DNA of 64,000 nt from Phanerochaete sordida (Eukaryota > Basidiomycota > Agaricomycetes > Polyporales > Phanerochaetaceae): NCBI GenBank assembly GCA_019973155.2, contig BPQB01000055.1:154566-218565 (forward strand), given 5' to 3'. Of the stretch, positions 4,158 through 42,295 are shown piece after piece. The first letter of the stretch is position 1, and every line of letters begins with the position of its first letter. The notes under the pieces were generated by a model. That model worked only from the letters and a program-made list of their open reading frames with translations, was not told the DNA's origin and ran no database searches. Position numbers and translations under genes: made by a program.

Positions 4158-5600
4158 TTTCACTGGTAAAATACGACGACGCACCGCCTGCACATAAGAC
4201 GATGGCTCCCACCTGCAACACCTGGGTTAGGGTTTCGTGGCCGCGCAACCCCTGGGTTCACTAGCCGCTTTCTCTTGCATCCACCACCACCATCTCTATG
4301 TCCGCCTGTGTGTCAGCTCGAGTGGCCGCTGCGTAATAGAGCAAGAAAATCATCGCCCACGCGTGCACGACCACTGGAAGCATTGACAACGACACCCACC
4401 CCGCCCGCGTCAATGCCACGTCATCGACTTGGTACGACATCGCACAGCAGCGCACCGCTAATGACAACGGCTGCGCGCGTTCTCGAGGCGTGAATGCCGC
4501 CTGCAGGTGCCGTGTCCATCGCGTTCCGCTCAGCGAGGTGTCTGCTGACCAGTGCGTTTCGCTTTGCAGGAACGACTGCGGACGACGACGAAGCATGTGC
4601 GCGACCGGCCACGTCGACGAAGCATGTGCATACGAAGTGCGCAGCGACACATGCGCGCGGCGACTGCGGACGCATGCGCGCGACGTGACGGCGTCCGCAG
4701 GCTCTCGCGCGGGACGTCGGCACCGCTGGACGCGCAGCGCAAGATCTCCGCGTGGCTGCGGTCGTCGGAGTCGCGGCAGGACGGTGCGCAGCGTTTTATT
4801 TGAATCTGCACGAATCGCGGTTCTGACGCTTTCGCAGCGACGGCTTGAGAGACGGGGAGGCGGCAGGAGGTCGCGAGGAGGGGCGGCTGGGCGGCAGCCG
4901 GACGGTCCAGGGAGGCGGCGACGGTCCTGGACGTATACGGTCGTCAACACGCGCCGCGGAAGAGCAACGAACGTAGATTCTCACCATCACCACCGCCCAT
5001 GCGCCCCGCGGCGAAGGCCAGCGCCGGCCGCCGTCGTCTTCCACCGCCCGCGCGCCCCTCCCTTCGCGTCACGCGCGGCACAGAAGCCGAAGCTGCCAAA
5101 CCTCACCCACCGTCGCCGCCGCTCCCAAGCCGCCGATACGGAGTCCGTGCACCTCGCGGGCGTGCGTGCATCCGCAGCGCAAAGTCGTCCATGTCGCTTG
5201 GCGGCCGCGCGCGCGTGCGCCGCGACGCCAGAACGCCGTCCGGTGAGCGCGCCGCCCGGGCAGCACCAGTGTGCGTCTCTGTCGCGCGGCATCACCCAGC
5301 TCCTCCACGCCCCACCGTGCACGCTCGCCGAGCACGGCGCCGCCGTGGCTGCCATTCGGCACGACGAGGTCGTTGCTGCACATCGTCAGCATCGGCTCGC
5401 GGATGCGGAGGGCGGCGTACATGACGGCATACGGCATGCGCGCGTGGTGCTGCGGGTCGAGCTGCGGGTCGAGCGCGTCCGCCCCGCGATCGTTAATTAC
5501 ATTAGATATCCACATGTCACTATATATATATTCTGATGCCTTCAGATATCGCTCCTGTGTGCATACATTCCATATTCTGAGAGGCAACCCTTAGTAAAAG
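4158..5600. other. GC-rich stretch without a supported gene
   Basis: Long open frames exist on both strands (for example 4490-5536 plus and 5069-5587 minus). They are arginine-rich, low-complexity and mutually overlapping, as expected from high GC content. I see no domain. A stretch near 5370-5500 read on the minus strand (DALDPQLDPQHHARMPYAV) looks slightly more protein-like and could be a gene remnant. An AT-rich run (tatatatatattc) lies at about 5521-5533. Confidence 0.4.
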
Positions 5601-30558: not shown

Positions 30559-31800
30559 ATGCGATCTAGTGCTTCACGCACGGTCCCGACAGAGCTGGAA
30601 GGCCATATGCTCGACTATATGCGGGGCAATCGACGAGCCCTGGTTAATTGCTCCTTGGTATGCAAGTCGTGGCACAAGAGGGCGCGCGAGAATCTGTTCC
30701 ACACCATACACATTGACTGGACCGACAGACGGCGCACGATGCTCCTCCTCGCGGCGCTGAAAAACGCATATATGCTGGTCCGCGAGCTGACGATTTCGGA
30801 CGCGGCAGGGCTCAAGCCCGAAGAACTCCTCGAGCTCTTGGAATCGCTTGACAATCTCGAGCTGCTTTCCGTCGACGCGCACGCGCAGCGCATGGGCGCG
30901 CTACAGCTCATAATCTGCATCACGACCTACGTTGACCTCGGAGAACGGCTCCTCGCTGCGATCGCGCGCATGGGCTGCCTGCACACTATCGAGTTTTCCT
31001 CGCATGGCTCGCTAAGCGGCTGGATGCCTCTCGAGAACGACCCAGTACCCGGCGCTCTACCCGCTTGCAGACTCCGCCGTCTCCAGGTACTCGACGGCGA
31101 CGTTTTTCCCCCGTCGCAGACGTACAGGTTCTGGGAGGCGCTCACAGCAGAGAAGGCGAATGACGACGCGGCCCCGCTGTTGCACCTGAGCACGACGATG
31201 GCGAGGAACGGATTTGGACCGCTCGCGCGCTTCCTTGAATCCTCCGGCACGCAGCTGCAGAGCCTTCGCTTGGACATACGCATGGTGCCTTTGTGGCAGG
31301 AGGGCACCCTCCACGGTAAGTGCATACCTCTCTCATGCACCCGCGCTTGCCGTTACTTAGCCAGAAGTTTAGCATTCCACACGAGCGGATTCTCCCTCTC
31401 CGTCTGCAAGCACCTTCGCACGCTCACCCTCCTTCTGGACGCGCCACACCCGCAAGACACGCACAACATCGCCATCTGCGCGGCGCTCCTCGCCACGGCG
31501 GCGGCCGACGTGCCGCTCGAGCACGTCGAGCTCGCGGTCTATCACCTCCACTGCGCGACCTTCGATTCGCCGCACACCGCAGACATGTTTGACGTGCTGG
31601 ACAGTACGCTAGAGAATCTCCCGCACCTGAAGAGCGTGGAGTGGCATCTGAACCACGTCGAGCCGCCTGGCATTCCCCACATGCGGCAGTCGCTCATTCA
31701 CGTCGTTCGGCAGCGCATCCCACTGCTGGCGCGGAGGAAAGGGGTCGATTTGACGTGGAGAGTGGCGCGGATGATGGGCCGGGCGAGTAGTAATATTTGA
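30559..31800 (+). CDS. F-box/LRR-like family protein E
   Basis: Exons 30559-31315 and 31373-31800 encode 394 residues. The 57-base intron is a multiple of three, so the gene also reads open without splicing; the paralogs and the sites cacg/gtaagt and tttag/ca show that it is spliced. N-terminus MRSSASRTVPTELEGHMLD, F-box LVCKSWHKRARENLFHTIHI. The body includes LVRELTISDAAGLKPEELLE, GERLLAAIARMGCLHTIEF, LDGDVFPPSQTYRFWEALTA and LARFLESSGTQLQSLRLDI. Exon 2 has FHTSGFSLSVCKHLRTLTLL and LENLPHLKSVEWHLNH. It resembles pseudogene I more than the C/D/F/K group. Confidence 0.88.
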   Translation: MRSSASRTVPTELEGHMLDYMRGNRRALVNCSLVCKSWHKRARENLFHTIHIDWTDRRRTMLLLAALKNAYMLVRELTISDAAGLKPEELLELLESLDNLELLSVDAHAQRMGALQLIICITTYVDLGERLLAAIARMGCLHTIEFSSHGSLSGWMPLENDPVPGALPACRLRRLQVLDGDVFPPSQTYRFWEALTAEKANDDAAPLLHLSTTMARNGFGPLARFLESSGTQLQSLRLDIRMVPLWQEGTLHGKCIPLSCTRACRYLARSLAFHTSGFSLSVCKHLRTLTLLLDAPHPQDTHNIAICAALLATAAADVPLEHVELAVYHLHCATFDSPHTADMFDVLDSTLENLPHLKSVEWHLNHVEPPGIPHMRQSLIHVVRQRIPLLARRKGVDLTWRVARMMGRASSNI

Positions 31801-38237: not shown

Positions 38238-38710
38238 GCCGGGATTTGGACGCTAAACTCTGTCTTTGTCCCCAACCACGACGACGTCTGCGTGAGTGGC
38301 TATGTTTTTTTCCACCTCCATTCGACTCATTACTCGCGTGTCTAGAAACTATGTGCCACCTTCCGACAGAACTTCGAGACCACATCCTAGATCACTTGCG
38401 GGGAAGTCGACGAGCCCTCATCAGCTGCGCCTTGGTCTGCACTTCGTGGCGCCCAAGAACGCGCTACAATCTCTTCCACACCATCCATCTAGACTGGACT
38501 CGCAAGAAACGCACAGTGCTTCTACTCGAAGCTCTACGAGAAGCATACATGCTGGTCCGCGAGCTGAAGATCTCGGAGGCGGCAGGCTTGCAACCCGAAG
38601 ATCTCGTTTCACTTTTGGAATCTCTCAACAATCTGGAGCTGCTGTGGATCGACAGAAACGGGAAACGCAGGAGGGCATTGGACCTCACAGCTTCTGCCTC
38701 GAACGACCAA

Positions 38711-38715
38711 TTCCT
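38711..38715. repeat. Target site duplication, left
   Basis: ttcct immediately 5' of the element; a single copy in the empty site encodes the Phe-Leu of the F-box gene. Confidence 0.88.
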
Positions 38716-38941
38716 TATTGATTTTTCTGGACTGTTTCGAGCTCGGACTCACCGCGCCCTCGCGGTATTTGTTTGTTCGTATTTATTCCGACCGTATGTA
38801 CCGAGACTGCTTGTAACTACGGCTCGCGCGCGACCCGAGACACCTTGTAGTGTACATAAGGACCCGGAAATCGTAGGCGAACGCTAGCGCGTCTGCTCCT
38901 CAGCCGACGTACTTCGCACCGCGCGACCTCGATTTCTGACA
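38716..38941. repeat. Terminal direct repeat, left
   Basis: 226 bases, starting tattgatttttctgg and ending tttctgaca; same length and sequence as the right copy. Confidence 0.92.
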
Positions 38942-39049
38942 CAAACGCGCTGCTCCCCGTCACCCTCATCGTCGTCGTCGCTCGCATCGTACCCCTCGTC
39001 GCTCGCCACGTCCTCGCCGCCCGCTGCCGCCGCGCCCGTTGTCGTCGTC

Positions 39050-39345
39050 GATGCCGCCGTAATCGCCCGCTGGGGCCGAAACCAGAACCGCCGCCGCCGT
39101 CGTTGTCGTCGTAACCGCCCGCGCTGGGGCCGAAGCCAGCACCGTCGTCGTATCCGCCACCGGGGCCGAAGCCGGGACCGTCGCCGCCGTCGTCGTATCC
39201 GCCCGCTGGGGCAGAAGCCAGCACCGTCGTCGAGTTTGCCACCGGGGCCGAAGCCGGGACCGCCGTCGTCGTCGTCGTCGAAGCACATCGCCGCCGGGGC
39301 CGAAGCCGTGCACACCGCCGCCGGGGCCGAAGCCGCGCACACCGT
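39050..39345 (-). repeat. Glycine/aspartate-coding tandem repeat inside the LTR element
   Basis: Imperfect units built on ggcttcggccccggtggc and tacgacgacg. Read on the minus strand they encode GFGPGGG and GYDDGAGFGPS in several shifting frames, so the repeat has gained and lost bases and no single frame spans it. It may be the captured tail of a host gene or a structural repeat. Confidence 0.6.
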
Positions 39346-39731
39346 GACCGCCGCCGTTGTCGTTGTACCACGCCGAGCCGTCGCCGCCGCCCCCACTGCC
39401 GAAGAAGAATCACGAGGAGTTGACCGTCGTCGCCGTCGCGCCGCCCGTCGAATCCGCAAGCGCACCCGAGACACGTACCCGAACCACGCGCGCATCGCCC
39501 GCTACGCCCGCGCGAGACCCACCGAGCCGCGCGAAGTCTCGCACCGCCGTCGCAAACGCTATCATCGCCCACGCCGCCGCCCGCATTGCCCGCATCGCTG
39601 CCGAGGCGTACACAACGTTGTCCCCACTCCCCGTCGCGTCGAGCAACCCCTTTGAAGTCCCACAGGTTTCGTAGCTTAAGGGGGTGCATTTGTAAGCTTC
39701 CGCGCCGTTTCGTCCTTCGCTCGCGGGGGTG

Positions 39732-39957
39732 TATTGATTTTTCTGGACTGTTTCGAGCTCGGACTCACCGCGCCCTCGCGGTATTTGTTTGTTCGTATTT
39801 ATTCCGACCGTATGTACCGAGACTGCTTGTAACTACGGCTCGCGCGCGACCCGAGACACCTTGTAGTGTACATAAGGACCCGGAAATCGTAGGCGAACGC
39901 TAGCGCGTCTGCTCCTCAGCCGACGTACTTCGCACCGCGCGACCTCGATTTCTGACA
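39732..39957. repeat. Terminal direct repeat, right
   Basis: 226 bases, identical to 38716-38941 by eye; the reading frames through both give the same residues for their whole length. Confidence 0.92.
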
Positions 39958-39962
39958 TTCCT
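39958..39962. repeat. Target site duplication, right
   Basis: ttcct immediately 3' of the element, matching the left copy. Confidence 0.88.
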
Positions 39963-41106
39963 AGGCCGCCGCCTACTCTCCACACTCATGCGCATGGAAC
40001 ACCTACGTGCTGTCAACTACGCCCCCTCCAGCCTTTTTGGCAACTCCTTAATACCTCTGCCTTTACCTCCGTACATTGGCGACCTGCCCACCTCTCGGCT
40101 TTACCTCCTCCAATCGCTCTGCGGCGACATCTTCCCCCCGCCTCACATGTACAGCTTTTGGGAGGCGATAGGCGAGGCAAAGGCACAGAAAGGCGCAGCG
40201 CCACTCCTGCACTTCGGGACAGCGGTGACGGGGGCCGGCGTCAAACCCCTTGCTCGCTTTCTTCAAGGCTCTGGTCTTGCGCTGCTGAGCCTCCAGCTGG
40301 ACGTACACTATATACCCTACTCTCCAGAAGGGACCGTCGATGGTGAGTGCATCGCGCCATCTCCCAGTCGAACACCCTTCAGTTGTCCAATTTGTAGCTT
40401 TCCGTGCCTGTGGCCTTTCCTTGGCCATTTTCAAGGGCCTGCGAAAGCTCGCGATACGTATAGACATGCCAATTGCAGACAGCGTCAGCATCGCAATCTG
40501 CGCGGCGCTGCTCGCTACCGCGACCGCAGAAGTTCCATTGGAGCACCTCGTGATCGCCGTCTTCTACCACTACAATGAACCTTCCGCACTCCTCCGCATC
40601 TCAGAACAGTTCGACGAACTGGACTAAGGCTTGTCGTGTTTTCCGCACTTGAAGACCGTAGAATGGCATCTTCACGACCTCTGCAGCAAATCTTCACGCG
40701 CACCCTTCTTTGGACAACCTCTCATGTACGTCGTCCGTAAACTTGTCCCTCGGCTTACGCAAAGGGAGGGTGTCGAGGTGTTGTGGAGAGTGGTGAGAAA
40801 ATGAGATAGCGGCGAGGAAGCTGAGGAGCGCGGGCAGATGCACATGCGGAAGGCTCAGAGTCGCCCTGTGGACCTTACTCTTTTGTAATCGGCCTCTGTT
40901 CTCTTTGAGCTTGCGATGCGCTGTATTTTTGCACGCGCCCGTCACAATTTACGCGTGCACGTAGGACATGTGCGGGCCAGTTTGAAGCGTTTGTTACCGC
41001 GAAAAATTACCGCTGTATATGGCGCTAGCCCGGATACAGAAGGTTGGTAACTTACTCGCGGCTTGCTTCTGTCACTGACCGGCCCTTTCCGTCAACGTCA
41101 CAGAGC

Positions 41107-42295
41107 ATGTCGAGAGTCCCGCTAGAGCTTCAAGACCATATCAACGACAGCTTACAGAGTGACAGACAGGCCCTCTTGTCTTGCGCCCTGGTCTGCAGGG
41201 CGTGGCATAGGCGAGCCCGAAGTAACCTGTGCCACACGATTTGTATCGACTGCCAGTGGACGGATGAAGCACGTAGCCTCAGACTCTTTTAAGCCCTAGT
41301 CGAGACCAGTGGTTTCGTCCGATGCCTCACGATCTTGCGTACAGGCGGAATCGGCCACGAGGATCTCGTCCGGCTCCTCGAGGCATTGGCCAACCTGGAG
41401 TCTCTCGTCGTTCGCCCTCATCATGGAGATCCAAGCTCGCTCTACATCATGCACAATATCGCCTGCAGCTGGAAGTTGGGAGAGCGGTTGTGTTCCGCTA
41501 TTGCGAACATGGAGAGGCTCCGCCACCTAGAATTTGCAGATGGCGGTATAGTGGACGGCCGGGGTACCGGGGGCCGGCCACGCGAAATCGTCATCATGGC
41601 GCCCGGCTTGTAAAACCTACCATCGCTAGATGGCTATCTCTCTCCTCCTCCGCGCATGCACGCGCTTTGGGCCGCCATCGTCGCCGCAAAGGCGCACCAC
41701 GGTGCCCTGCCGCTTCTTCACCTTAAGGCGTCAACTGACTCCGTCAATATCATACCCTTGAGAAATCTCCTCGTGCAGCTGGGCGCGCAGCTGCGTAGCC
41801 TGCATTTGAGTGTACACCGTGAGTTTGTGCCATCCTTTTCAGGTCCTCTTGCTTCTTGCTTACATGACGGTTGAAGGGTCCCGCCACGAGCGCTCCCTGG
41901 ACCCGTGTGCGGGCATACGCAGGATTTCCGTCCGCGTAGACGGCCCGAACAATATAGCTGCTGGGACTCTCGCACCATGTACCGCGCTCCTGGCCACGCT
42001 GCCGCGGGAGGCGCCGCTCGAGCATATCGCCGTCACGATAACATACTTCGGAAAAGAGTCCTTGCACAGTTGTCAGTTCGCGGTGGACGCTAGTACGCTG
42101 GACGAGCATCTAGCGGGACGCGAGACCCTGCGTCAAGTCGATTGGAGCCTGGTCTACGCTGGTAGAGGCGATGGAGATGTGCTGAAGGATCCGAGCGATG
42201 CCATCGGTCTATTCTTGCCGCATCTACCTCAGCTCGCTGAGCGAGCGGATGTTAAGATGGCGTGGGTAATTCGGGTAATTCCAGGCCTAGAATAA
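41107..42295 (+). pseudogene. F-box family member J with two in-frame stops
   Basis: It starts MSRVPLELQDHINDSLQS with F-box LVCRAWHRRARSNLCHTICI. The frame hits TAA at 41290-41292 (after RSLRLF) and again at 41611-41613 (after APGL), yet stays in register on both sides: RTGGIGHEDLVRLLEALANL, GERLCSAIANMERLRHLEFA, then LSPPPRMHALWAAIVAAKAH. The second exon (about 41880-42295) carries CAGIRRISVRVDGPNNIAAG, PLEHIAVTITYFGKESLHSC and RETLRQVDWSLVYAG. The splice junction near 41820-41880 is not clear. Two point nonsense changes without frameshifts suggest fairly recent inactivation. It is the most divergent plus-strand member. Confidence 0.82.

Follow-up and report, generated by a model that had tools for sequence, protein, structure and literature searches.

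A short, very probably copia-derived LTR element in an F-box gene of Phanerochaete sordida, its gag-bearing relative and a candidate self-priming site

In the basidiomycete Phanerochaete sordida, a gene within a cluster of F-box paralogs is interrupted by a 1242-bp segment with the outward form of a complete LTR retroelement. What this segment is, where it came from and how it could be copied are the questions raised by the locus, which lies in the window analysed here, a stretch of 64,000 nucleotides (contig BPQB01000055.1, positions 154,566 to 218,565 of the forward strand). The following features, given in window coordinates, were recognised at the locus:

38351..38715 (+): 5' portion of the disrupted F-box gene, left target-site duplication (TSD) included; the first 121 aa match PF12937 at E 1.2e-6, above the cut-off
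38711..38715 (+): left TSD, ttcct, read from the sequence
38716..38941 (+): 5' LTR, 226 nt, ends TA...CA, from self-comparison and the family LTR alignment
38852..38859 (+): TATA-like box GTACATAA in U3, a putative promoter element
38885..38895 (+): predicted 5' end of R, TAGCGCGTCTG; 10 of 11 positions pair with the primer-binding site (one as a wobble), with one mismatch
38942..38952 (+): predicted primer-binding site (PBS) CAAACGCGCTG, abutting the 5' LTR; its first 9 nt are invariant in all five complete elements
39043..39366 (+): GC-rich leader with degenerate repeats every ~82-88 nt, core GGGGCCGAAGCC
39399..39674 (+): likely remnant of the 3' end of gag, an open frame lacking an ATG here and ending SNPFEVPQVS*
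39715..39731 (+): polypurine-type tract (PPT) of 17 nt, CTTCGCTCGCGGGGGTG, identical in all five complete elements and presumably used as such
39732..39957 (+): 3' LTR, 226 nt, identical to the 5' LTR by self-comparison
39958..39962 (+): right TSD, ttcct, read from the sequence
39963..40342 (+): F-box gene downstream of the element, as far as a possible donor, read by eye, of a putative intron

The coordinates agree with the original prediction of two 226-base repeats (0 differences in 226, hence 100% identity), a 790-base interior (38942-39731) and ttcct on both sides. When the element is excised and one ttcct kept, an open frame starting at 38351 and containing ...NDQFLGRRLLSTLMRMEHLRAVNY... 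is obtained, and this frame aligns to the F-box paralogs straight across the junction, with gaps elsewhere and none at the junction, so that the predicted restoration of an F-box gene is borne out. The element is an LTR retroelement that interrupts a coding exon, the frame of which is exactly restored on its removal. With the element in place, the F-box frame runs into the LTR and terminates after 178 residues at a stop at 38887. By tblastn, the restored frame has nine paralogous places in the window besides itself (13864-48319), the nearest of them at 30583-31140 (54% over 188 aa); the place at 41107-41676 carries two stops. Across the whole genome, at least 148 F-box-like matches were found among the best 150 of 687 candidates, which were the ones scored.

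Searches of the genome with the whole element, the LTR and the interior, in which the best candidates were scored, so that the family counts are lower bounds, found both the full elements and the solo LTRs for which a genome search had originally been proposed: at least five complete elements of 1.19-1.69 kb and at least 25 further LTR places, falling into two LTR subfamilies, A and B. The complete elements are listed below by contig of the source assembly (C-numbers; C55 is the window copy), with LTR/interior/LTR lengths in nt, TSD and number of differences between the two LTRs:

C55 (window): 226/790/226, ttcct, 0
C70: 227/793/227, cgggt, 0
C133: 225/741/225, agtac, 2
C95: 229/753/229, ccttc, 0
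C145: 230/1232/230, cggca, 1

All five have a perfect 5-bp duplication; because four further loci show the same build, every one flanked by its own perfect 5-bp duplication, the observation stands far above chance. The LTRs end in TG..CA in four of the five, and the window copy has TA..CA: its LTRs start with TA (38716-38717, 39732-39733), the remaining aligned LTRs are TG...CA, and its TSD is still perfect. Since both of its LTRs start with TA, the change was either present in the template or copied from one LTR to the other. The C70 and C133 elements, too, interrupt long stop-to-stop frames, of 500 and 491 aa once the two sides are joined, with F-box matches below the cut-off (E 0.055 and 0.12). 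A target preference for F-box genes was considered and rejected: 4 of 16 insertions lie in frames of at least 390 aa, no clear excess over the 16.6% seen for 960 random positions.

At least 11 A-type LTRs have no partner. A script found a perfect 5-bp TSD around 7 of the 11, and the solo LTR on C39 becomes an eighth once its start is shifted by one base by eye; those on C4, C47 and C17 have none. Searching with the C145 LTR added at least 14 further B-type places, of which three or more are partial (C108:26498, C59:1-126, C166:25685). Exact PBS matches, and PPT matches with up to two mismatches, are absent next to all 14, which are therefore taken as solo or broken LTRs; they enter no alignment, and a fragment on C90 was also left out. 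The piece at C59:1-126 corresponds to LTR positions 1-126 at a contig end (100%) and C166:25685-25809 to positions 106-230 (98%); the two may be one LTR split between two contigs, hiding a further copy. The PPT pattern occurs exactly in all five complete elements, nowhere else in the genome at zero or one mismatch, and at six other places at two mismatches, and the PBS pattern has eight other exact genome matches, counted as bare pattern matches. Kimura two-parameter (K2P) distances are 0.01-0.31 within the A-type LTRs and 0.52-0.70 between A and B. From these distances the family looks old, with complete copies whose LTRs are near-identical and other copies surviving as single LTRs.

The interior of C145 reveals a lineage. 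It encodes a 281-aa Gag with a copia-type gag domain (PF14223, E 2.5e-29) and a zinc knuckle (zf-CCHC, E 4.7e-6), which over its full extent shares 99% identity with PsYK624_165980 of Phanerochaete sordida. Residues 6-245 match PDB chains named Copia VLP protein (E 1.2e-12), chains that we take to be from Drosophila. C145 contains gag and no pol between its LTRs, and the other four complete elements lack the capsid region. LTR elements that carry gag only are known as TR-GAG. C145 resembles them in its LTRs, leader, copia-type gag and lack of pol, and the window copy, from which the capsid region is absent, falls outside that class; the TR-GAG literature that we found concerns plants, by title. 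Elsewhere in the genome, relatives of this Gag include one of 40% identity on C15 and eight, 24-25% identical, whose frames measure 306-308 aa. Gag-like frames of 306-322 aa were noted at nine places (C15:435228, C78:63706, C51:74190, C2:186232, C56:205321, C118:64343, C36:81835, C98:53977 and C190:186); they are too short for pol and hence may represent further gag-only families.

The tail of this gag is clear in C95, which retains the last 35 codons of the C145 gene (83%, tblastn), and fainter in C55, C70 and C133, where tblastn with the C145 Gag finds none. For the window copy, the likely homology is drawn from a DNA match of 59 nt to the gag of C145 (76%, E 8e-5), from the interior alignment and from a clear relation between its interior and that of C95 (70% over 153-497, 345 nt, E 7e-59). 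The leaders of C70, C133, C95 and C145 are likewise related to its GC-rich leader. Changes at codon positions 1, 2 and 3 number 6, 3 and 10 in the residual frame of C55/C133, and 5, 2 and 1 in the gag tail of C95/C145, where all six changed codons are non-synonymous; changes are few in both comparisons. Of the two frames of the window copy scanned for domains, the sole match is a sub-threshold one to DUF2397 (E 0.002), and the residual frame has no protein homologs at E 0.01. The predicted lack of coding capacity for transposition is thereby supported, with the qualification that the interior is not anonymous, being related to a copia-type gag element. An antisense frame (38817-39689, minus strand, 290 aa) with GFGP/GGYDD repeats and no Pfam match is probably a by-product of the GC-rich leader.

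The relation of the window copy's interior to a gag-bearing element could also reflect a single internal deletion that a larger copia suffered at this very site, which would leave no mobile miniature. The interiors of C70 and C133, however, match that of the window copy at 96% and 85% at other loci with different TSDs; unless those loci are artefacts of the assembly, the short form was thus itself copied, and we consider a one-off deletion very improbable. The plainest history that we infer from the alignments is that a gag-bearing element lost its capsid region and that the short form then spread by copying. Similarity between C55 and C70 is mosaic (interior: 96-100% over nt 200-700, 95% in the final block and 89% over the opening 100 nt; LTR: 90%), which suggests template switching between lineages. 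Copia-type gag, whole in C145 and as a tail in C95, places the family in the Ty1/copia lineage. As judged from these homologies, the window element is a non-autonomous Ty1/copia derivative, TRIM-like in build, that exists beside a gag-only relative.

A source of Pol was looked for in the assembly, which has 12 copia RT matches. At these loci, examined with 1.5 kb on each side, no similar LTR was found except on C157, where a family LTR (4845-5071 of the extracted locus) lies between two pieces of a broken copia RT. No pol-bearing member with the same LTRs or PPT was found in the assembly, either at the RT loci or with the PPT pattern, so that the larger autonomous partner with the same ends that had originally been envisaged did not appear within this range. 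In the 361 bases upstream of the gag on C118, where an ordinary copia PBS was sought, there is no recognisable LTR end. The helper may be absent from the assembly, or its LTRs may not be those of the family. That the window element is copia-derived and trans-mobilised is very probable.

The predicted assignment to TRIMs stands in part. Like TRIMs, the window copy has two short LTRs (100-250 bp in the class), a place for a PBS, a PPT and no proteins for its mobilisation; unlike them, it measures 1.24 kb, above the strict limit of <1000 bp stated in the passages of PMC6934838 and PMC10886601 on TRIM size, and has a related gag-bearing element in the same genome. As to the tRNA-directed PBS of TRIMs, the window copy has a 10-nt internal match to a tRNA-Arg-like tRNA, and no PBS for a tRNA 3' end was seen in an unsystematic comparison of tRNA 3' ends. 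The accompanying view that TRIMs are poorly described in mushrooms needs amending, as basidiomycete TRIMs are in print: those of Boletales are tabulated in PMC5689174, and the Helenus section of PMC10886601 includes Agaricomycetes (Agaricus and Coprinopsis). No report of the present family was found in the open-licence literature, searched mostly by title.

The age of the insertion is less constrained than the identical LTRs might suggest. At the fungal rate used in the dating part of PMC5689174 (1.05e-9 per site per year), 0 differences in 226 give a 95% upper bound of 6.3 My, and the point ages of C133 and C145 are 4.3 and 2.1 My; at such rates, identical LTRs date an insertion only loosely. 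The original description as very young is therefore compatible with the identity of the LTRs, which allows a recent insertion, and is bounded only at 6.3 My. No empty allele was found in the assembly, where the 411-nt upstream flank matches itself and five places of 66-75%, all on the same contig. Alternatively, LTR identity could stem from gene conversion or assembly collapse. All five elements show only 0-2 differences between their own LTRs, yet K2P distances between LTRs of different complete elements are 0.07-0.66; in addition, the P. sordida YK-624 genome (41.2 Mb) was assembled with SPAdes from Illumina MiSeq reads (PMC8530024), and the B-type LTR cut by a contig end on C59, with another piece on C166, points the same way. 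On the other hand, the differences that persist in C133 and C145 mean that collapse was incomplete, and the perfect TSD of the window copy and the otherwise open frame around it favour a young insertion. We hence regard conversion or collapse as improbable.

How reverse transcription of these elements is primed can be approached from the site beside the 5' LTR, where CAAACGCGC is found in all five complete elements. Its complement, GCGCGTYTG with small variations, lies within the LTR. Counted from the initial T of the TATA-like box, it begins 31-32 nt on in every one of the 20 LTRs that have a box (32 nt in 18, 31 nt in 2); 21 LTRs were examined, 16 of them distinct and ten of them the paired LTRs of complete elements, C162 was left out as having no TATA-like match, and the TATA pattern was composed after the alignment had been viewed. 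Over 16 LTRs (the 3' LTR of each complete element and all 11 A-type solo LTRs), GCGCGTTTG ranks 6 of 218 windows in conservation. Set against the opening 11 nt of the PBS, the 11 nt of the predicted R start are fully paired (11 of 11) in C70 and C145 and paired at 10 of 11 positions in C133, C95 and C55. Predicted folds include this R:PBS helix, with R-U5 lengths of 57, 57, 56, 57 and 57 nt in the five elements.

The strength of the match varies among copies. Of 2000 shuffled LTRs for each copy, none attains the exact match for C70, 3 do so for C145, 6 for C133 and 50 for C95; in the window copy, whose LTR site has one mismatch, the exact match is unremarkable (437 of 2000). The exact match in the 5' LTR of C145 is 7 nt long, interrupted by a G-U wobble. 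Over the five sequences 94.5% of cells pair, versus 16-58% for slid partners. Column shuffles reach that percentage in 85 of 500 cases. A single pair is altered on both of its sides between the subfamilies; the shuffles yield such a change in 263 of 500 cases, and a slide of +3 has two of them, so that covariation alone offers no support.

The same PBS could instead be served by a tRNA truncated at its 3' end, the mode of Drosophila copia, Ty5 and fungal Helenus. It would then pair with D-arm and anticodon-stem sequence in a tRNA-Arg-like tRNA, the LTR match being coincidental or secondary; priming from the anticodon region is known for copia elements from the account in PMC10886601. A tRNA gene at C6:544495-544578, called Ser-CGA by ARAGORN and read by us from its stem and loop as an intron-bearing Arg-UCG, contains GTAGCGCGTTTG, complementary to the PBS over 12 nt in C70 and C133, 10 in C55 and 9 in C95 and C145. 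Exact matches to the tRNA and to the LTR are 10/7 nt in C55, 12/11 in C70, 12/10 in C133, 9/9 in C95 and 9/11 in C145, the tRNA being as good or better in four of five. Other tRNAs may match the PBS, as the best 63 of 833 tRNA candidates were scored. However, GTAGCGCGTTTG has nine exact matches in the genome, and the five that were read comprise two family PBSs, the C6 tRNA and two places that are not tRNA by ARAGORN; at least three other tRNA genes carry GTAGCGCGTCTG, which the PBS mismatches; and the 3' end of the primer would fall in the anticodon stem of the gene as we read it, not in the loop as described for Helenus. Priming by a tRNA also leaves unexplained why the LTR site is conserved and why it keeps a set distance from the TATA-like box. 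We favour priming by the element's own RNA, in the manner of Tf1, because it alone explains the site and the spacing: self-priming appears reasonably probable from the sequence pattern, and a truncated tRNA primer somewhat unlikely, though a rival to be taken seriously.

A further variant of tRNA involvement, a Helenus-type TRIM with tRNA-like sequence in its LTR, would fit the 5-bp TSDs, copia-like PBSs and presence in Agaricomycetes that PMC10886601 gives in its description of fungal Helenus. ARAGORN found no tRNA in 16 family loci, and a comparison of 38600-40050 with Rfam gave nothing at E up to 10; this identity was accordingly rejected and we give it hardly any weight.

Under self-priming, the element mRNA would start ~32 nt past the TATA-like box at TAGCGCGTYTG, and its first 11 nt would fold back onto the PBS adjoining U5; following RNase H cleavage as in Tf1, the folded-back end would prime minus-strand synthesis. 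The Gag of a relative and the Pol of another copia could then package, copy and integrate the element. The scheme resembles that of the self-primed Ty3/gypsy elements Tf1 and sushi: in Tf1, from the part of PMC7175516 on self-priming, the first 11 nt of the mRNA are complementary to a PBS abutting the LTR; unlike these elements, the present family has a copia-type Gag, and its priming is a prediction. Copia elements of the plant TAR lineage (Houba, Osr-1) are likewise predicted to self-prime in the relevant portion of PMC6317226, and differ in their plant hosts and in having polyproteins. The fungal copia GalEa has a hairpin in place of a tRNA PBS, a palindromic sequence for which its authors, in the hairpin passage of PMC5445492, report no U5 complement, whereas in the present family the partner sits upstream, inside the LTR. 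The open-licence literature, searched mostly by title, yielded no account of self-priming by a fungal copia or TRIM.

The boldest reading, to which we assign a probability of roughly 0.45, is of a two-tier parasitic family in this wood-rotting basidiomycete, with two deeply diverged LTR subfamilies and no autonomous partner found in the assembly, in which a gag-only copia relative and a capsid-less miniature would both be self-primed by a Tf1-like R:PBS fold-back, amounting to self-priming in fungal Ty1/copia.

For the host, the insertion is a natural knock-out within a tandem F-box cluster. For the family, the presence of gag-bearing and capsid-less forms in one genome shows how a miniature element can arise, and its priming site is directly testable. 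If self-priming is true, a mechanism shown in the Ty3/gypsy element Tf1 would operate in a copia lineage of fungi as well.
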